Part shown: in pieces, positions 169-33,617 of the stretch | Position numbering within the stretch: position 1 is the first letter of the stretch | How the letters are laid out: each line of letters opens with the position of its first letter | IMG/VR virus record: IMGVR_UViG_3300043568_000201 | Span: 1 to 33,617 of that record | Source: a virus | Strand: one strand, 5' to 3' | DNA: 33,617 nucleotides | The notes under the pieces: model-generated | Told to the model about the DNA's origin: nothing | Database searches by the model: none | The model's input: the letters and a program-made list of their open reading frames with translations, nothing else | Made by a program: the position numbers and the translations under genes

Positions 169-2298
169 ATGGCTGATTTTGGCTTTGTTGGTGCAGCTTA
201 TGAAGCTCCTTCCATCTATCAAGATGCACAGGAGTGCATAAACTTTAGACCTGAAATTGATCCTACCCTTCCTTCAGGTGCTAGACAAGTTATAGCTCTT
301 TATCCAACCCCAGGCTTAACTAATGTCGTAACCTTACAAAACGCTCAACAAGTAAGGGGAATGAGAACTGTTTCAGGCGGTGATTATTTAGTTGCTGTAT
401 GTGGGCCTTATGTCTATGTAATGGGATCAACTTTTACTCCCACAATTGTTGGTCAGTTAAATAGCTCAACTGGTCAAGTCGGAATTACAGATAATGGACT
501 AAATGTTTATATCGTAGATGGGTCTAATCGTTACACTTGGCGCATTTCTAATCCAGCTTCTGCGGTATTTCAAGGAACAATTAGCGGAACTACTCTTACT
601 GTAACTTTGTTGCAAAGCGGAACAATAGCAGCAGGACAATCTTTATTTGGTATTGGAATATCGAATCAAACAGTTATAACTGGTGGATCAGGAACATCTT
701 GGACTATTAATCAAAGCCATACAATTGCCTCTCCAATTCAAATGAACTCAGCAACTGTTGGAGCTGTAATAACAGCAGATATGTCAGGAACAACTTTGAC
801 TGTTTCTGCTGTTTCTAGTGGAACTTTGTATGCAGGTCAAACCATAACAGGATCTACAGTAACGGCTAAAACAATTATTACGGCTTTGGGTAGCGGAACT
901 GTTTTAAGTGAAACCATAGCTTCAGGTGGAACTGGTTACGCTGTAAATGAAAATATTACTGTTTTGGGCGGTGTTTATGGATCTAGTCCAGCTACTTATA
1001 CAGTTACATCAATAGGCGGTTCAGGAGCTGTTACAGGACTTACAAGAACTTTTTCAGGTCAATACACTTCTGTTCCTGCTAATGATGTATCAACTTCATC
1101 AGATGGTTCAGGAACTGGTTTAACCCTTACTTTGACATTTGGAACAGGAACTGGATCAACTGGTAACTATGTCATAAACAACAGTCAAACTGTTACTTCT
1201 AGAACCATGTATGGCTTAAATTTTAGTGAACTTCCTTCCACAGATGGAGCTTTTACTGGTGGCTCTGTAGTTGATATTGTTGATAACTACTTTATTTATA
1301 ACAGACCTGATACTCAGCAATACGCTGCCTCTGATGTTCTTTCTCCAATTACTTATGGTCTTTCATTTGCTTCTAAATTTACAGGGCCTGATGATCTTGT
1401 TTCATTAATAGTAGATCATGGTCAGATTTACTTATTAGGTGAAAAAACCTCTGAAGTTTGGGCTGATGTAGGAACTTTTCCATTTCCTTTCCAAAGAATA
1501 CCTGGCGCTTCTTCTCAACATGGGATAGCAGCTCAATTTTCAATGGCTCGATTTGGCAATTCTTTTGCTTATGTGTCTAGAAATGATCGTGGTCAAGCCG
1601 TTATTGTGCAAATGAATGGCTATTTCCCACAGCGTATTTCTACTCATGCTGTTGAAAACACCTTAGTAAATCAAACTATTAGTGATGCTATAGCTTACAC
1701 ATATCAACTTGAAGGACATGAGTGTTATGTTGTTACTTTTCCAAGCCTTGAATTGACATGGGTTTATGATGGAGCAACTCAGCTTTGGCATAAGTGGCTT
1801 TGGACTGATAACCAAAACAATTACAAGCGACATAGATCAAACTGTGGAGCTTTGTTTCAAAATCAATTTTTGGTAGGTGATTACGAAAATGGGCAAATTT
1901 ATCGATTAGATCCTACTAATTACACAGACAATGGTAATCACATTAGAAGAATGAGAAGATGCCCTCATTTGGTATCTGACTTTCAACGGCAATATTTTGA
2001 TGAATTGCAGATTCAGTTTCAGCCTGGTGTAGGTTTGCAAGGTATTGAAACTTTTCCTCTAGGCGATAACGATATAGGTATAAACCCTCAAGCCATGTTG
2101 CGGTGGTCAAATGATGGTGGATCTACTTGGTCAAATGAACATTGGGCTGGAATTGGTAAGGTTGGTAAATATCAAAATCGTATTATTTGGCGCAGATTGG
2201 GATGGTCAAGAGATCGAATTTTTGAAGTAGTTGTTACAGATCCAATTAAAGCTGTGATTGTTTCGGCTAACCTAAAAGCATCTGTAGGGGAAAACTAA
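169..2298 (+). CDS. P22 gp10-like tail hub / packaged-DNA stabilisation protein with inserted beta modules
   Basis: This 709-residue protein is recognised as a member of the P22 gp10 family, which sits under the portal and gp4 ring and closes the neck after packaging. The N-terminus (FVGAAYEAPS, NFRPEIDP, LYPTPGL, residues 6-50) and the C-terminal region with many aromatic beta strands (residues 345-709) are family-like. P22 gp10 is about 470 residues, so this one is much longer. The excess is residues 133-343: a module of the form SGTTLTVT...SG...AGQ...SQT (134-186), then a second copy (about 203-342) that is itself interrupted at 243-324 by a GGTGYAVN-type module. The start ATG follows AAGG by 7 nt. 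It sits between gp4-like and ejection genes, as in P22. The family call is from memory of motifs, not a search. Confidence 0.75.
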   Translation: MADFGFVGAAYEAPSIYQDAQECINFRPEIDPTLPSGARQVIALYPTPGLTNVVTLQNAQQVRGMRTVSGGDYLVAVCGPYVYVMGSTFTPTIVGQLNSSTGQVGITDNGLNVYIVDGSNRYTWRISNPASAVFQGTISGTTLTVTLLQSGTIAAGQSLFGIGISNQTVITGGSGTSWTINQSHTIASPIQMNSATVGAVITADMSGTTLTVSAVSSGTLYAGQTITGSTVTAKTIITALGSGTVLSETIASGGTGYAVNENITVLGGVYGSSPATYTVTSIGGSGAVTGLTRTFSGQYTSVPANDVSTSSDGSGTGLTLTLTFGTGTGSTGNYVINNSQTVTSRTMYGLNFSELPSTDGAFTGGSVVDIVDNYFIYNRPDTQQYAASDVLSPITYGLSFASKFTGPDDLVSLIVDHGQIYLLGEKTSEVWADVGTFPFPFQRIPGASSQHGIAAQFSMARFGNSFAYVSRNDRGQAVIVQMNGYFPQRISTHAVENTLVNQTISDAIAYTYQLEGHECYVVTFPSLELTWVYDGATQLWHKWLWTDNQNNYKRHRSNCGALFQNQFLVGDYENGQIYRLDPTNYTDNGNHIRRMRRCPHLVSDFQRQYFDELQIQFQPGVGLQGIETFPLGDNDIGINPQAMLRWSNDGGSTWSNEHWAGIGKVGKYQNRIIWRRLGWSRDRIFEVVVTDPIKAVIVSANLKASVGEN

Positions 2299-2537
2299 TG
2301 GCAAATCAAATATGGGGGCCAAGCCAAGACAACCCATTTCCTCAAACAGATTTTATGGATGAACAAACCAAAAGACCAACTAGAGCTTGGCAAGTATGGT
2401 TTTTAAATCTATTAAATTTCACTAAAATTTCACCTTCAGCAACTGCTGGAAGTGCTGTTTTACCAGCTAATCCAGTTGGATTTATTGAAATGACAATAAA
2501 CGGCAAGATTTACAAAGTGCCTTATTACAATGTCTAA
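2298..2537 (+). CDS. Small conserved phage protein of unknown function
   Basis: 79 residues. The start ATG shares a base with the upstream stop (TAATG), so translation is probably coupled to the gp10-like gene. The N-terminus is hydrophilic with a Trp/Phe-rich patch (WQVWFLNLLN, residues 32-41), and the C-terminus ends in a beta-hairpin-like segment (INGKIYKVPYYNV). I do not recognise a domain. Similar short proteins with a C-terminal INGK.Y.IPYY pattern occur beside neck genes of other podophages (recalled, not checked), so a small virion or fibre-attachment role is possible. Confidence 0.7.
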   Translation: MANQIWGPSQDNPFPQTDFMDEQTKRPTRAWQVWFLNLLNFTKISPSATAGSAVLPANPVGFIEMTINGKIYKVPYYNV

Positions 2538-3363
2538 TATACAAGTCATAACTGAAGAAAAAGTGCAAAGCCTAGAAAAGCACTTTTTGCAAGAAAAACA
2601 AACTGATTGTCCTGTAACTCATCATTTTGCTCCTAACATTTACATCCGAGAAGTTAGGATTCCAGCAGGAACATTTTCTATAGGGCATTATCAAAAAACT
2701 GAGCATTTAAACATCATGTTGGCTGGTAGAGTAACTATGGTCAATGAAGATGGATCTCATACAGAATTGGTAGCTCCACAGACATTTGTAGCCAAGGCTG
2801 GCAGAAAAATAGGTTATATCCATGAAGATATGATTTGGCAGAATGTTTATGCAACTAGCGAAACAGATATAGAAAAGCTAGAAGATATGTTTTTGTTAAA
2901 AAGCATGACATGGCAAGATCACCAAAACTCACAAAAACTGTTGCTTACCTTAGATCATTCTTCTGATATTGCGGATTATTATTTGGCTATAGCTGAATTT
3001 GGTTTTGACCATGAAACTGTTCGCAAACAGACTGAAAATACAGACGATCAGATTCCAATGCCTTTTGGTAACTATAAGTTTATGGTTGCTAATTCTAGAA
3101 TTGATGGAAAAGGTGTATTTGCTACTGGAAACTTTAAAGAAGGAGAAGTTATAGCTCCTGCAAGAATAAATGGCAAAAGAACTCCTGTTGGCAGATATAC
3201 AAATCATTCAAAAAATGCTAACGGAATTATGGTTTTGAGAGATAATAATGACATTGATTTAGTGGCAAAAAAGGCTATAAATGGATGTCATGGGGGTAAT
3301 TTAGGCGAAGAAATTACTATCGATTATCGGCAAGCCTTGAGTCTAGCAATAAGGAGAGATTAA
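2530..3363 (+). CDS. Cupin-SET fusion protein, putative protein lysine methyltransferase
   Basis: 277 residues in two parts. Residues about 36-108 look like a single-domain cupin: beta strands around IPAGTFSIGHYQKTEHLN (44-61, with His53 and His59 as possible metal ligands) and LVAPQTFVAKAG. Residues 183-270 carry the SET hallmarks in order: GKGVFAT (193-199), RYTNHS (222-227, the NHS motif that shapes the AdoMet pocket) and EEITIDY (260-266, with the catalytic-type Tyr266). SET domains transfer methyl groups from AdoMet to protein lysines. The target is unknown; a capsid, tail or host protein are all possible. The gene overlaps the preceding stop by 8 nt and lies inside the neck/ejection operon, so it is expected to be expressed late. 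No post-SET cysteines are visible. The SET call is firm on motifs, the cupin call less so. Confidence 0.8.
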   Translation: MSNIQVITEEKVQSLEKHFLQEKQTDCPVTHHFAPNIYIREVRIPAGTFSIGHYQKTEHLNIMLAGRVTMVNEDGSHTELVAPQTFVAKAGRKIGYIHEDMIWQNVYATSETDIEKLEDMFLLKSMTWQDHQNSQKLLLTLDHSSDIADYYLAIAEFGFDHETVRKQTENTDDQIPMPFGNYKFMVANSRIDGKGVFATGNFKEGEVIAPARINGKRTPVGRYTNHSKNANGIMVLRDNNDIDLVAKKAINGCHGGNLGEEITIDYRQALSLAIRRD

Positions 3364-4089
3364 ATGTCAGGAGTCGCAACAGCAATTGCAGTTGGCACAG
3401 TAGCTAGTGGATATATGCAAGGTCAAGCAGCTAAAAGTGCTGCAAGAACTCAAGCTGATGCTACAGCTAGAGCGCAAGATCAATTATTGGCAGCAGGACA
3501 ACAAGCCAAAGAATTTTATACTCCTTATTCTACAGCAGGAGAAATTGCTCTTAGCAAAATGTCCACAGATCCTTATTTTACTCAACAATTTACAAATAAA
3601 GATTTAAACGCTTATTTAGCACCAGGCTATGAATTTAGATTAGGTCAAGGTCAAAGAGCTAATTTAATGGCTTCTAATGCAAGTGGTGGAGCTGTAAGCG
3701 GTAATGCTTTGCGTAGCCTACAAGACTATACGCAAAACTTTGCTTCAGGCGAATATGCTAATGCTTTTAATCAGTTTCAGGCTCAACGAGGCAATATTTT
3801 CTCTAATTTAAGGGAAATTGCTAACTTTGGATTAACAGCAGCTACTGGTCAAGCTAACGCAACTATTGGAACAGGAACTAATGTTGCAAGTTTGACATCA
3901 GCATTAGGAAACGCACAAGCTGCTTCTCAAATAGCTCAAGGCAATATTTATGGAAATACAATCCAAGGAGTAGCAAACGCTGGATCTTATTATCTTATGA
4001 ATAGGGGTGGAGGCGGTCAGCTTCCTCAACAATCTATGCAACCAAATGCAACTGGTAGCAATATTGTGAACCCAATTGCCGTAGCTTAA
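3364..4089 (+). CDS. Ejection (pilot) protein, P22 gp7-like
   Basis: 241 residues, Ala/Gly/Gln-rich. It begins with a Gly/Ala-rich segment (residues 2-22, GVATAIAVGTVASGYMQGQA), followed by a long polar helix with Ala-Gln repeats and a conserved-looking block PGYEFRLGQGQ near residue 87. This pattern matches the DNA-transfer proteins of P22 and BcepC6B-like podophages, which are packaged in the head and ejected to build the DNA conduit. It is the first of three consecutive ejection-type genes, the usual gp7-gp20-gp16 arrangement. It starts just after the SET gene stop, with GGAGAG upstream. The identification is from composition, order and recalled similarity. Confidence 0.7.
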   Translation: MSGVATAIAVGTVASGYMQGQAAKSAARTQADATARAQDQLLAAGQQAKEFYTPYSTAGEIALSKMSTDPYFTQQFTNKDLNAYLAPGYEFRLGQGQRANLMASNASGGAVSGNALRSLQDYTQNFASGEYANAFNQFQAQRGNIFSNLREIANFGLTAATGQANATIGTGTNVASLTSALGNAQAASQIAQGNIYGNTIQGVANAGSYYLMNRGGGGQLPQQSMQPNATGSNIVNPIAVA

Positions 4090-4099
4090 AGGAATCACT

Positions 4100-5416
4100 A
4101 TGCCAGCACTAAGCACTTTACCTAACCCAAGTATTTATGGAACTGTTGAAGCACAAAAACCTATGTCTATTCAAGAAATGGTTAATCTTGGAAGAACTTC
4201 TACTGCCTTACAAAAAGAAAAGGCTTTGTTGCCTTCAGCAATTGAAGCAGGACAAGCTCAAGCAAAAACAGCTACCATTCAAGCAAATACTGCTGAATTA
4301 GATAATGCTTTAAGACATACAACACAAGTTACTCAAAGTATTCAAGGTTTACTTACAAAACCTGATTTAACTTCAGATGACATTGTTGCATCTGTTAAGG
4401 AAAACGCTAAAAGGATGAAAACTCCTGATAATGCGGTCAATCAAGCATTGTCTAATTTGCCTGTAAATGGCTCACCAACTCAATTAAGAGAATGGTTAGC
4501 AATGAGTTTAGCTAAAACTTTAAATGCTCAAACTCAGCTTGAAAAAGTTTATCCTGGCGGTGTATTGCCTTCTCAGTTGCCTCAAGGCGGTTATCAGACA
4601 AATGTGCAAGGAACTGAAACTAATGTTCCTTCCGCAACTTCTACTACAGCTCCTAAAACTGGTGTTCAACCTCAAGATATGAGCCAACCAGTTAAGACTG
4701 ATTTAAGTAAACCAGTTCCTTTGTCTTATCCTATAAGGCAAGCTGGTCAAGCCTATACAGCACTTCCACAAGAGGAAGATGAGCGTAAACTTGGAACTTC
4801 TTCTAAAACAGCTTTAATTGCTAGGCAGTCTGAACTTCCTGCTTCTCGCAGAAATGTGGATGAAGTTATTAAAAAAGCTATGGAGCTTGAAAAATCTGCT
4901 TTATTGCCAACTTCAGGAGTTTTGGGTTCTTTTGAAAGAAACTTATCTACATTCTTAGGAACTGAACAAGGTATTCGTTACAAAGAATTGTCTAAAGACT
5001 TAGCTAACGCTGCTATTGCTAATATCAAAGCAACTGGCGGTTCTATGGATACTGTTGCAGGACAGCAATTACAAAGAATGGCAAATGGAGATGAAACATA
5101 TCCTCCTAAAGTATTAATTGAAATTGCTCGTAGAACTCAAGCAGACATGACAGCTCTTGACTCAAAAGCGACAGCAATTAAAAAATTCTCTGACAAGTTC
5201 GGAGATCAAAACTTAAAGTCATTTGAGCAAATGTGGTCTAAAAATGCTGATCCTAAGATATTCCAAGCAATGAATATCTTTAATGATCCAAGAATGACCA
5301 AAGAAGAAAAAGCAAAAGCTAGAGATGAATTATTAGGAACTGATAAAAATCAACTAAAGATTTTTAATGAGCAATACAATAACATCAGAAGATTAGAGCA
5401 AACAGGAACTCTGTAA
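4100..5416 (+). CDS. Ejection (pilot) protein, second of three
   Basis: 438 residues. The N-terminal third is helical and Gln/Ala-rich (SAIEAGQAQAKTATIQAN, residues 46-63). A disordered Pro/Thr/Gln linker covers about 155-225, and the C-terminal half is helical and charged (residues 240-438). There are no enzymatic motifs. The start ATG follows AAAGGA by 6 nt. The stop overlaps the next start (TAATG). Size and place correspond to P22 gp20 (about 470 residues), the middle ejection protein, but sequence similarity to gp20 itself cannot be claimed. Confidence 0.6.
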   Translation: MPALSTLPNPSIYGTVEAQKPMSIQEMVNLGRTSTALQKEKALLPSAIEAGQAQAKTATIQANTAELDNALRHTTQVTQSIQGLLTKPDLTSDDIVASVKENAKRMKTPDNAVNQALSNLPVNGSPTQLREWLAMSLAKTLNAQTQLEKVYPGGVLPSQLPQGGYQTNVQGTETNVPSATSTTAPKTGVQPQDMSQPVKTDLSKPVPLSYPIRQAGQAYTALPQEEDERKLGTSSKTALIARQSELPASRRNVDEVIKKAMELEKSALLPTSGVLGSFERNLSTFLGTEQGIRYKELSKDLANAAIANIKATGGSMDTVAGQQLQRMANGDETYPPKVLIEIARRTQADMTALDSKATAIKKFSDKFGDQNLKSFEQMWSKNADPKIFQAMNIFNDPRMTKEEKAKARDELLGTDKNQLKIFNEQYNNIRRLEQTGTL

Positions 5417-14778: not shown

Positions 14779-14927
14779 TCTATTTCATTTATGACGAAGA
14801 TGGGTTGATTCGCCAGGTCAAAAGCAGAACTGAGGCTCAATACCTTGTTTCGCTAAGACCTGATTGGAAGATTGTGGCTAAAAAGGTTAAAAAACCCATA
14901 TTTAAATTCGAGGAGGCTTTGTTTTGA
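14775..14927 (+). CDS. Small hypothetical protein (50 aa)
   Basis: ATG 14775 overlaps the stop of the DUF1376 gene (ATGA); TGA at 14925-14927 overlaps the TTG start of the methyltransferase. The 50-residue product has IYFIYDEDGLIRQV, then SLRPDWKIVAKKVKKP, a plausible small alpha/beta protein. Tight coupling on both sides supports translation. Function unknown. Confidence 0.6.
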   Translation: MIYFIYDEDGLIRQVKSRTEAQYLVSLRPDWKIVAKKVKKPIFKFEEALF

Positions 14928-15763
14928 ATGAGTTGGCTCTTTTCGCAGGTGCTGGTGGAGGAATACTTGGAGGACATTTGCTTGGATGGAGAACAGTATG
15001 CGCTGTTGAATGGGAAGCCTATCCAGCAAGCGTATTGCTCGCAAGACAAAATGATGGACTTTTGCCGAGTTTCCCAATTTGGGATGATGTTCAAACCTTT
15101 GATGGAAAGCCTTGGAGAGGAATTGTTGATGTTGTATCAGGAGGATTTCCATGCCAAGACATCTCAGCAGCAGGAAGGGGGGGGGGAATCGAGGCAGAAC
15201 GATCAGGAATGTGGAAAGAAATGGCGAGAATCATTGGCGAAGTTAGACCCAAATACGCTTTTGTGGAAAATTCCCCAATGCTCACTACTAGAGGACTTGG
15301 AACAGTCCTTAGAGATTTGGCCCAAATGGGGTTCGATGCGGAATGGGGAGTGCTTTCCGCAGCCGATGTTGGCGCAAATCACCATAGACAAAGAATTTGG
15401 ATTGTTGGAAAAAACACCAAACAATGTGAATTTTTTCCATACACCAAATACAACAGGAATAGATGGGGGAAGCAACAGCCGAAAAGCTCTGAAAAAAAGA
15501 ATATTTCCGACACCAAATGCGGAAGATTGGAAAAACAGAGGAAATTTGAGCAACCCATCAATCCAAAGAAGATTAGAAATTGGCAAACAAATTTCATTGA
15601 GTATGGTGGTTCATCCGACATCTGGAAATTTGAACCCAAATTGGACAGAGTGGTTGATGGGATGGCCGATAGGGTGGACAGACTTAAAGCCATTGGAAAT
15701 GGACAAGTTCCCCTTTGTGCAGCAACAGCATGGAATTTGCTCAGAAAACGAATAGATGAATGA
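14924..15763 (+). CDS. DNA (cytosine-5) methyltransferase
   Basis: 279 residues from TTG 14924, which lies 7 nt after GAGGAGG. All core C5-methyltransferase motifs are present in order: LFAGAGGGILGG (motif I, 6-17), GGFPCQDIS with catalytic Cys77 (IV), VENS with Glu115 (VI), RQRIWIVG (VIII, 155-162) and IGNGQVP (X, 257-263). The target-recognition region (about 165-235) is short. It would methylate cytosine in phage DNA, most likely against host restriction; no partner endonuclease is adjacent. A second frame, shifted by +1, is open over nearly the whole gene, and a run of ten G (15177-15186) lies just after motif IV. The reading given here needs exactly this number of G or one differing by three. 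Confidence 0.9.
   Translation: MNELALFAGAGGGILGGHLLGWRTVCAVEWEAYPASVLLARQNDGLLPSFPIWDDVQTFDGKPWRGIVDVVSGGFPCQDISAAGRGGGIEAERSGMWKEMARIIGEVRPKYAFVENSPMLTTRGLGTVLRDLAQMGFDAEWGVLSAADVGANHHRQRIWIVGKNTKQCEFFPYTKYNRNRWGKQQPKSSEKKNISDTKCGRLEKQRKFEQPINPKKIRNWQTNFIEYGGSSDIWKFEPKLDRVVDGMADRVDRLKAIGNGQVPLCAATAWNLLRKRIDE
14928..15755 (+). CDS. Second long frame fully overlapping the methyltransferase gene (+1)
   Basis: 275 codons without a stop from ATG 14928, 11 nt after the same GAGGAGG. The product starts MSWLFSQVLVEEYLED and has recognisable blocks: LLWKIPQCSLLEDLEQSLEI, PKWGSMRNGECF, RGNLSNPSIQRRLEIGKQ and, near the end, LNPNWTEWLMGWPIGWTDLK. I recall phage proteins in databases that begin MSWLFS and carry the WLMGWPIGWT block, annotated as methyltransferase-like; this could not be checked. 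Either the frame encodes a true second protein, or it is kept open because both frames are under constraint in this family, or it is reached by frameshifting. Trp-rich composition is unlike neighbouring proteins. Confidence 0.45.
   Translation: MSWLFSQVLVEEYLEDICLDGEQYALLNGKPIQQAYCSQDKMMDFCRVSQFGMMFKPLMESLGEELLMLYQEDFHAKTSQQQEGGGESRQNDQECGKKWRESLAKLDPNTLLWKIPQCSLLEDLEQSLEIWPKWGSMRNGECFPQPMLAQITIDKEFGLLEKTPNNVNFFHTPNTTGIDGGSNSRKALKKRIFPTPNAEDWKNRGNLSNPSIQRRLEIGKQISLSMVVHPTSGNLNPNWTEWLMGWPIGWTDLKPLEMDKFPFVQQQHGICSENE
15177..15186 (+). repeat. G10 homopolymer inside the methyltransferase overlap
   Basis: Ten consecutive G in an AT-rich genome, encoding part of Gly-rich residues 85-88 just after catalytic motif IV. 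Loss of one G would join the methyltransferase N-terminus to the +1 frame; gain of one G would join the N-terminus of the +1 frame to the methyltransferase C-terminus. The tract could be a slippage site or partly a sequencing error. Confidence 0.8.
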
Positions 15764-16270: not shown

Positions 16271-17004
16271 TTCATTATCATGGGCTTCCTATAACTCCTA
16301 CTACAGTTGCTAATTATGCGGTGCAAGCTGGTCATGCTTTTGTTTCGTTTGCACATTCTGACCAAGTGGGAACAGCGATTGATCTAGCTCAATCTTTTGC
16401 TTTAGACAATGGTGCTTTTAGTGCTTGGAAGTCAGGAAAACCAGTTAAAGATTGGACTGATTTTTATGATTGGGCCTTAAATCTTAAAAAAGTTCCATCT
16501 TGTGATTTCGCTGTTATTCCTGATGTTATTGATGGAACAGAAGATGACAATGATGCCTTATTAAAAGATTGCCCTTTGCCGTATTGGTTTGGTTCTCCAG
16601 TTTGGCATTTGCATGAATCCTTAGAAAGACTTGAGCAGTTAGCAAATACCTATGTTCGTGTTTGTTTAGGAAGTTCAGGAGAATATTCCACAGTTGGTAG
16701 CAATATTTGGTGGGCTAGGATGGGAGCTGCTATGAGAGTTGTATGTGATGACATGGGAAGGCCAATCTGTAAGTTGCATGGTCTTAGGATGCTCGATCCT
16801 GGCATTTTTACTAAATTTCCTTTTAGTTCAACAGACAGCACCAATATAGGAAGAAATGTAGGAATTGATAAACATTGGAAAAACGGAAATTACCCTCCTC
16901 CAACTAAAGAAGCTAGAGCGCAAGTAATGAGAGCAAGAATTGAAGCTCACAATGCTCCTGCTACTTGGAATTTTGTGCAAATTGAACAGGAAGGATTATT
17001 TTGA
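16267..17004 (+). CDS. TGT/DpdA-like TIM-barrel enzyme (putative 7-deazaguanine transglycosylase)
   Basis: 245 residues from ATG 16267, with AGGG upstream and ATGA overlap. Motifs that recall the tRNA-guanine transglycosylase/DpdA superfamily are LDNGAFSAW (46-54), CDFAVIPDVIDG (79-90, possible catalytic Asp), GSPVWHLHE (109-117), RVCLGSSG (131-138), KLHGLRML (169-176) and SSTDSTNIGRN (187-197). TGT swaps guanine for preQ1 in tRNA; DpdA does so with preQ0 in DNA. The usual TGT zinc motif is not evident, which fits short phage DpdA-like forms better than true TGT. It is followed directly by a QueD-like gene, which supports a 7-deazaguanine role. The assignment needs structure comparison. Confidence 0.55.
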   Translation: MIHYHGLPITPTTVANYAVQAGHAFVSFAHSDQVGTAIDLAQSFALDNGAFSAWKSGKPVKDWTDFYDWALNLKKVPSCDFAVIPDVIDGTEDDNDALLKDCPLPYWFGSPVWHLHESLERLEQLANTYVRVCLGSSGEYSTVGSNIWWARMGAAMRVVCDDMGRPICKLHGLRMLDPGIFTKFPFSSTDSTNIGRNVGIDKHWKNGNYPPPTKEARAQVMRARIEAHNAPATWNFVQIEQEGLF

Positions 17005-17372
17005 AACTTACTCAAACTTTCTTTTTTGATGCAGCTCATACCCTTGATAGAACAGTAAATGTTTATGACCATTTAAAGTCTAAAAATATTCATGGTCATA
17101 CCTATCATGCAAGTATTTCGATTCAAGGAAAGCTAGGAGAAAACGGCATGATTAGAGATTTTGGAGATATTAAACATTCTGTAGATGCCATTAAATATGC
17201 TTTGGATCATGAATTTCTTAACAATGTTCCTGATCTTGGTATCCCTACTTTAGAAAATTTATGTCTTTTTATTGCAAAAAGGCTGCATAACATTGATGGT
17301 CTTTGTGAAGTTTCAGTTGAACGAAAAGCATCAGGCGATAAATGCACTTTAATTATTGAAGGAAATATATGA
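17001..17372 (+). CDS. QueD/6-pyruvoyltetrahydropterin synthase-like protein
   Basis: 123 residues from a TTG start 5 nt after AAGGA. QueD makes carboxytetrahydropterin on the way to preQ0. Family residues seen are FDAAH (9-13, His13), HGHTYH (31-36, zinc His31 and His33), RDFGDIK (52-58), LDHEFLNN (68-75, His70), PTLENL and Glu107. The catalytic Cys normally four residues before HGH is replaced by Ser27, so activity may be altered. The coding region overlaps the DpdA-like gene by 4 nt, so they form one unit. Confidence 0.75.
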   Translation: MKLTQTFFFDAAHTLDRTVNVYDHLKSKNIHGHTYHASISIQGKLGENGMIRDFGDIKHSVDAIKYALDHEFLNNVPDLGIPTLENLCLFIAKRLHNIDGLCEVSVERKASGDKCTLIIEGNI

Positions 17373-32452: not shown

Positions 32453-33617
32453 ATGGCAAAGCCAATTGACATAATTTCAAGAGCATTAAAGGATATTGGC
32501 GCTTTAGAAGCTGGAGAGCAACCTACAGCCGATTCTGCTAGAGATGCTTTTGAGATGATGAATGACCTCATAGACCAATGGTCTAACGAGGATATGATGG
32601 TTTTTAACATTACAGAAATCATTTTTCCTGTCATAGCTGGTCAAGTGCAATATACGATAGGCCCTGATCCATCTACTGCTAACTTTATTGGCTCAAACTT
32701 TACAGGAACTTTTTCAGGTAATGTTTTGACAGTTACTGGTATTAATTCAGGAGCTGTAGCTCAAGGTCAGTATTTAAGTTGTCAAGGAATTACTAGCGGA
32801 ACTCGCATTGTTCGTAATCTGACAGGAGCTGGCGGTAATGTAAACGAGCAAGGAACTTACCTTTTAAACATTACTCAGCCCACTCAAACTCCTGTATTTA
32901 CTGGTTCAATCTCAGGAACAACCCTAACTGTTACAGCTATGACTTCAGGCGCTGTCAATGTAGGCTCTGTTATTAGTGGAACTGGAGTAACGGCAGGAAC
33001 AACGATTTCAGCTCTAATTTCAGGAACTGGTGGAGTTGGAACTTACACAGTAAGCGCTTCACAGACTGTAGCCTCTACAACCATAACAGGCACTATTGTT
33101 CCTTCTACCATTACTGCTTACTATCAAAAGCCATTAGGTATTGATAGTGCTTATGTAAGGATTAATACTAATTCCAATGGTATGCCAATTCTTAATGGTG
33201 GCTTGGATTACCAAATGGCAGTTCTAGCTTTAGATAACTACAACTCGATTGGTCTTAAAACTTTGTCAGGGCCTTGGCCTAAAGCCGTATATTTCAATCC
33301 AAATGAGCAATCAGGAAATATATTTTTATGGCCTAACCCTTCACAAGGCGAAGTCCATTTATTTGCTCAGACCATATTTAGCAATTACGGCACTATGTAT
33401 GACGATATAGTTCTTCCACAAGGCTATTCAATGGCTCTTAGATGGTGCTTGGCAGAGCGTTTGATGCCTATGTATGGCAAAGCATCAGCTACTCAAATAG
33501 CAATGATTAATGCTTATGCAGCTCAAGCTAAAGCAACACTAAAACGCACCAATATGAAGCCAATGGCATCAGCTCAGTTTGCAGATGCAATGTTATCTAG
33601 CAGACAAAAAGATGCTG
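32453..33617 (+). CDS. P22 gp4-like neck protein with inserted beta modules (continues at 128-159)
   Basis: This frame starts at ATG 32453 (AGGAG 7 nt upstream) and is open to the end; across the junction it ends at 159, giving 398 residues. The N-terminus [20 protein letters not shown] (2-21) and [17 protein letters not shown] (31-47) match P22 gp4, the tail accessory factor that first binds the portal. P22 gp4 is 166 residues. The excess is largely residues 82-215, two tandem copies of a Thr/Gly/Ser beta module ([36 protein letters not shown]) also found in the gp10-like protein. The rest ([13 protein letters not shown] to WILNGGFFR) returns to family-like sequence. Confidence 0.8.
33491..33617. 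repeat. Right copy of 127-bp terminal direct repeat
   Basis: Identical to 1-127. It lies inside the 3' part of the gp4-like neck gene. Removing one copy gives a 33,490 bp circle and an uninterrupted 1197-nt gene. Confidence 0.9.

Follow-up and report, generated by a model that had tools for sequence, protein, structure and literature searches.

Genes and features at the locus

The window, that is the whole 33,617-nt stretch of viral DNA analysed here, carries an exact direct terminal repeat of 127 bases (positions 1-127 and 33491-33617), from which a whole genome of about 33.5 kb, assembled as a circle, is the probable reading. The gene under study encodes a two-domain protein composed of a cupin, a helical linker and a SET domain, and lies downstream of a head-closure gene and a small ORF and upstream of a gp7-like ejection gene (Table 1). 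This is the place among neck and ejection genes that had been assigned to it in an earlier note made from the sequence letters. A chance or spurious open reading frame was excluded by the dN/dS values, the profile matches and the structural model presented below.

Table 1. Coordinates of the fusion gene, its parts and its neighbours in the window
Feature	Position	Strand	Description and basis
Head-closure Hc3 / P22 gp10-like gene	169..2298	+	phrog_578, 1.1e-97
Small 79-aa ORF	2298..2537	+	Conserved upstream neighbour; without family match
Cupin-SET fusion gene	2530..3363	+	277 aa; ATG start; 8-nt overlap with the small upstream ORF
Cupin (double-stranded beta-helix)	2599..2901	+	About residues 24-124; VIA-align and phrog_12032/phrog_24280
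Helical linker	2905..3057	+	Residues 126-176; AlphaFold2 model; conserved with the SET domain
Minimal SET domain	3058..3342	+	About residues 177-271; Pfam SET, profile matches to MLL1/vSET/EZH2, structure alignment
GxG (G193, G195), AdoMet-site motif of SET	3106..3114	+	Invariant in 68/68
RTxxGR (R217-R222), at the usual I-SET place	3178..3195	+	R217, T218, G221 and R222 invariant in 68/68
NHS motif (N225, H226)	3202..3210	+	N225 and H226 invariant in 68/68
EEITIDY	3307..3327	+	Y266 aligned with the Tyr of E-L-T-x-D-Y in solved SETs (MLL1 alignment)
AAGGAG Shine-Dalgarno of the downstream ejection gene	3351..3356	+	Within the last codons of the fusion; sequence
P22 gp7 / T7 gp14-like 'DNA ejection' protein (ej7)	3364..4089	+	phrog_598, 2.1e-27
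Second ejection-gene slot (P22 gp20 / T7 gp15-like)	4100..5416	+	Position only; without family match; order as in PMC8954989
Third ejection-gene slot (P22 gp16 / T7 gp16-like), 844 aa	5416..7950	+	phrog_873, phrog_2276 and phrog_7182 (endolysin / tail injection transglycosylase)

In PHROGs, the fusion protein matched phrog_34170 over residues 3-271 (1.1e-91), and its N-terminal half matched phrog_12032 (4e-35) and phrog_24280 (5e-29). The AlphaFold2 model of the whole fusion, for which the input was 68 sequences from the window and from IMG/VR loci, had a pLDDT of 91.5 and a pTM of 0.87.

Elsewhere in the window, a cytosine-5 DNA methyltransferase is encoded at 14924-15763 on the plus strand (Pfam DNA_methylase, 2.1e-32), and a second open frame of 275 aa, shifted relative to it (14928-15755, plus strand), runs along the whole methyltransferase and matches phrog_1008 and phrog_26627. 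In 80 related IMG/VR loci, which were chosen by the second frame itself, there were 1-3 stops per methylase region in this frame compared with 6.6 expected from synonymous shuffling (p <= 0.05 in 74 of the 80). In the window and in three annotated phages, 2, 0, 39 and 1 of 2000 shuffles reached the length of the frame's longest open run. AlphaFold2 gave no confident fold for the second-frame protein (pLDDT 47). From these sequence patterns, the second frame is possibly a conserved overlapping gene. A further gene at 16228-17004 matches phrog_887, labelled queuine tRNA-ribosyltransferase (9.8e-71), and is followed by a PTPS/QueD-like gene at 17001-17372 (4.8e-24); the pair may belong to a 7-deazaguanine pathway, perhaps for DNA modification.

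The cupin and a minimal SET domain

The earlier note had described the N-terminal fusion partner as cupin-like, and this description held. For the cupin, the single-sequence Pfam score was below the cut-off (Cupin_2, 12.4 bits); it did match the two PHROGs families named above, and residues 24-124 of the AlphaFold2 model were superposed on the solved cupins PpnP, DddK and ectoine synthase with Z scores of 9-10 (VIA-align). The metal site is incomplete, with motif 1 reading H53/Q55/H59 and the motif-2 His replaced by I94, a position that is I, V or A in nearly the whole family. A classical metallo-cupin (HxH..E and a motif-2 His) was therefore excluded, and the H/Q/H motif 1 together with the absent motif-2 His makes a classical metal enzyme unlikely. 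The linker is modelled as two helices, at residues 126-156 and 161-169, and a helical linker also precedes the stand-alone SET of a bacterial locus described below (L271).

The C-terminal part is a genuine SET domain, with a motif match far beyond chance. The motifs which had been judged convincing from the letters are present at residues 193-198 (GKGVFA), 222-227 (RYTNHS) and 260-266 (EEITIDY). Pfam SET (PF00856) scored 23.9 bits in the window protein, above the gathering score of 22.4, with an alignment that spans residues 219-266 only and a single-sequence E value of 5.6e-5. The Pfam cut-off was exceeded by 10 of the 12 carriers or SET ORFs tested, the two below it being phage P26218 (16.3 bits) and locus L241, which was just under (22.3 bits). 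When a 12-row SET-only family profile was compared with solved structures, MLL1 (3.8e-7), PBCV-1 vSET (1.3e-5) and also EZH2 were matched, and a 68-row profile of full-length relatives reached MLL1 at 5.6e-10. Searches of the PDB with the single fusion or cupin sequence, or with a cupin-only profile, returned noise only; the PDB relatives were reachable only through the SET profile and the model.

The structural comparison was concordant. Residues 177-267 of the model were aligned on MLL1 with a Z score of 10.5 (79-85 residues, 1.9-2.1 Å), and residues 181-266 on vSET with a Z score of 9.8 (80 residues, 2.0 Å, 34% identity; both VIA-align); EZH2 was also among the matches of the SET part (Z ~10, ~2 Å). 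Both halves of the SET fold were recovered within residues 177-271, with Z scores of 9.8-10.5 on MLL1, vSET and EZH2 that describe a fold alignment and not the threading of the knot. In a library of viral structures, the best matches were uncharacterised phage cupins and, from an uncultured phage, a protein of 263 aa recorded as 'SET domain containing protein'. Structure prediction and comparison with SET and cupin folds, as proposed in the earlier note, thus recovered both folds; a model lacking the SET fold was not obtained.

Ten residues (G193, G195, R217, T218, G221, R222, N225, H226, N231 and E261) were invariant in all 68 homologues, and Y266, the catalytic-type Tyr, was invariant in all 67 sequences that reach its column. 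At position 264, which aligns with the F/Y-switch position known from other SET enzymes, 64 sequences carry I or V. A GCxGG loop stands ahead of EEITIDY in many family members.

The I-SET segment, which normally aids substrate binding and helps to form the substrate groove, is nearly gone: about 9 residues separate GEVIA from VGRYTNH, compared with about 44 in MLL1. It is short in all family members and in the stand-alone phage SETs, and the invariant RTxxGR occupies its place. The post-SET region is absent from the fusion protein. I-SET is variable among SET proteins and is not required by Pfam, and the domain is a variant SET despite the missing segment. The identification as SET in the earlier note stands, with the amendment that the domain is not canonical and is optional on a resident phage cupin. 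The term eukaryotic-type survives as a label only; SET proteins also occur in phages, in archaea (Methanosarcina acetivorans, in a control search) and in large DNA viruses.

Spread, gene slot and modularity

This SET was present in 8 of 50,697 annotated phage records, which represent P26218, zth2-2, PH1 and three Manatee Spring records, and two of its carriers are cultured (Rhodoferax phage P26218 and Pseudoalteromonas phage PH1). In IMG/VR, 413 stretches were related to the fusion. The view that SET enzymes are rare in phages was therefore correct for annotated records and not for environmental ones. A collection of 128 distinct fusions was assembled from the best-matching IMG/VR loci of four scans and from annotated phage loci. 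Against close relatives, dN/dS was 0.05-0.12 for the whole gene, 0.03-0.09 for the linker and 0.05-0.18 for the SET part (close pairs). The fusion is common to hundreds of mostly environmental phages and is maintained by selection.

A plain scan of bacterial genomes for the fusion found no copies, and a profile scan of bacterial assemblies found six loci, four with the fusion and two (L271 and L272) with a separate SET ORF. On the chromosome of Paraburkholderia ferrariae (L272:7671-9118), cupin and SET are encoded as two ORFs with a 4-nt overlap, in surroundings near integrase-like genes that look like a prophage or satellite element. In Comamonadaceae bacterium ALPHA2B (L271:7854-8420), a SET of the same type stands alone, with the helical linker and without the cupin, in a prophage-like region.

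The gp7-like ejection gene was directly downstream in 109 of the 128 distinct fusions; in the others, the fusion was at a contig edge or the neighbour was unrecognised by the search. The nearest upstream neighbour was the small ORF of the 79-aa type in 60 of the 128. For 102 of the 109 downstream genes a Shine-Dalgarno-like site was found, every time within the cupin-SET ORF, and the downstream start codon was located between 3 nt past the fusion stop and 37 nt ahead of it, apart from a single case 127 nt ahead. This arrangement accounts for the C-terminal tails that recur in the fusion (IRRD and CQE). Tight gene packing is common in phage operons, and the coupling therefore has supporting weight only.

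Among P22-like phages, VvAW1, BA3, Vibrio 234P9, 1.039, ctkAd229 and Amaethon have a cupin-only relative in this slot; in T7-like phages (Krylovirinae and VAC_51) such a relative is encoded at the corresponding place, behind the tail tube genes (tail tubular B in Krylovirinae). In Alteromonas phage H4/4 the cupin is elsewhere, ahead of the portal gene. In the model phages the slot holds P22 gp14, annotated under head morphogenesis, and T7 gp13, annotated as an internal virion protein. A review of ejection proteins treats P22 gp7 and T7 gp14, which is ejected first, as equivalents (PMC8954989). Cobaviruses encode a GNAT-type enzyme beside their internal virion genes, and it has been regarded as the equivalent of T7 gp13 (PMC6775973); an enzyme fold at this position is thus not without precedent.

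Within the fusion, the cupin is the resident and the SET an optional module that was gained or lost repeatedly. On a cupin-only tree the SET label required at least six changes, an exact count being soft with some long branches, and a single clade of all SET carriers was rejected (AU test, p = 2.35e-5). The clearest pair consists of a SET-bearing relative (L192) and Thalassomonas phage BA3, which is without SET; the two have collinear genes, with coat proteins 76%, Hc3 68%, ejection proteins 67% and cupins 71-74% identical. A Pfam search of the BA3, VvAW1 and 1.039.O genomes found a SET domain nowhere. With six or more gains or losses of the SET while the cupin was kept, assembly in itself does not depend on the SET. 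This optional state argues against an essential assembly step and would be compatible with an accessory role, either in tuning the ejection proteins or on the host after delivery.

Possible function and relation to known systems

The explanation that we favour, tentatively and at somewhat less than even odds, is that a morphogenesis protein carries the SET as an optional, AdoMet-dependent lysine methyltransferase, with virion proteins as the likely targets. The cupin would be the small phage morphogenesis protein of the slot just ahead of the first ejection-protein gene, and the minimal C-terminal SET the enzyme module that it bears. Judging from the conserved residues, the SET may transfer methyl groups to protein lysines from AdoMet, late in infection. 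The fusion would be translated just ahead of the first ejection protein, and the cupin would keep the SET beside its targets, most likely virion proteins of the neck or the ejection set.

Among these, the lysine-rich second and third ejection proteins (7.8% and 9.0% lysine, respectively) may be better candidate targets than ej7 (1.7%). No conserved lysine column was present in the ej7 alignment, the best being K in 49% of the SET-bearing phages and the same in those without SET. Some conserved lysines do occur in the second and third ejection proteins, K14 and K843 of the third being found in all sequences present, but the sample consisted of about 20 near relatives, all with SET, and gives no hint of a target.

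Whether the SET is catalytic bears on this explanation first. The invariance of G193, G195, N225, H226, E261 and Y266 is expected if catalysis is retained; with I-SET almost absent and no post-SET, activity is not assured. The fold might instead have been kept as a structural or peptide/AdoMet-binding module in the assembly of the neck or ejection proteins. The near loss of I-SET and the missing post-SET would be compatible with this, as would the invariance of R217, T218 and R222, which are not classical catalytic residues, and the incomplete metal site of the cupin, which suggests a structural use of an enzyme fold. However, no change is seen at GxG, NH, Glu or the catalytic-type Tyr across 67-68 sequences that diverge down to 28% identity, and Y266 is not needed for a purely structural use; we consider a non-catalytic SET unlikely.

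The same low likelihood is given to the fusion as an injected effector, which would enter the virion and then the host together with the ejection proteins, and whose SET would methylate host proteins early, in take-over or counter-defence. Such delivery would suit a gene that adjoins, and is translationally coupled to, that of the protein ejected first, the repeated gain and loss of the SET with retention of the cupin is typical of accessory anti-host functions, and small stand-alone SETs are found in a non-structural region of other phages (P-SSM7 and Kolga). However, delivery does not need fusion to a cupin, and there was no match to a PADLOC defence model, though counter-defence would not be listed there.

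A component of the tail tip or short fibre, an adhesin with the SET as a passenger, is more doubtful still. PHROGs labels phrog_12032 'short tail fiber protein' and phrog_24280 'tail fiber adhesin', and the record of Shewanella phage X14 names its cupin 'putative structural protein', but these labels were made by homology and no experiment behind them was found. The authors of the VvAW1 genome gave the protein only as hypothetical PHA00672 (PMC3558961), and its size and gene position suit a morphogenesis factor and not a trimeric fibre. Finally, a joint cupin and SET small-molecule enzyme unrelated to protein methylation, to which the nearest solved cupin folds might point, being small-molecule enzymes such as PpnP, DddK and ectoine synthase, is highly improbable, as a shared fold shows no function and both metal motifs are altered or lost in the family as described above.

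If the favoured tethered methyltransferase is set beside its host-directed variant, the broader proposal is that a widespread podovirus group uses a minimal, I-SET-less SET, borne on a morphogenesis cupin, to methylate lysines in its own ejection or neck proteins, or in host proteins after ejection; we regard this as plausible though short of probable. If true, virion assembly or genome delivery would gain a new kind of post-translational modification, and RTxxGR would mark a distinct phage class of SET enzymes. If the enzyme is active, this stripped SET would show how little of the fold suffices. Protein lysine methylation has been little explored in phage assembly, and here a histone-methyltransferase fold is kept by selection in many phage lineages, one gene ahead of the protein that is first to exit the capsid. 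The presence and absence of the SET on a collinear operon (L192 and BA3) make its role testable by comparison and by point mutation.

The sequence family itself was already known, as it is contained in PHROGs without a function. Phrog_34170 (PH1 gp49 and P26218 gp30) is the same full-length two-domain fusion (PH1 protein, 2.9e-155), likewise encoded just before the ejection gene in both phages; it is listed as of unknown function with no SET or cupin assignment, and the window protein is about 28-52% identical to it. One record was labelled 'PBCV-1 histone H3-Lys 27 methyltransferase structure'. In the literature search, no paper on a cupin-SET fusion was found, nor an account of its domain architecture, of the form without I-SET, of the constant gene slot or of the repeated gain and loss; the 'SET domain' matches in papers on crAssphage and phage tails were immunoglobulin I-set/C2-set domains instead.

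Position is what the fusion appears to share with P22 gp14 (DUF2824) and T7 gp13 (PF11090), each a small protein directly ahead of the first ejection gene. Homology was not found, as each of them matches only its own Pfam family and the fusion matches neither; T7 gp13 gave only a faint GNAT-like match (E 0.39). The PHA00672/phrog_12032 cupins of BA3, VvAW1 and 1.039.O are homologous to the cupin of the fusion and occupy the same slot, but have no SET. Short SETs of about 100 aa with RTPxG...NHS like that of the fusion are encoded by Prochlorococcus phage P-SSM7 (gp204) and Pelagibacter phage Kolga (gp27); unlike the fusion, they are without a cupin and do not adjoin ejection genes. From these sequences, the short RTPxG...NHS SET may be a phage-wide form. 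A stand-alone SET is also annotated in S. maltophilia phage Ps15 (ORF62; PMC9025141). Compared with PBCV-1 vSET (A612L) and MLL1/KMT2A, the fusion shares the SET fold, GxG, NHS and the Tyr of the C-terminal motif, and differs from both in having RTxxGR in place of I-SET, no post-SET and an attached cupin.
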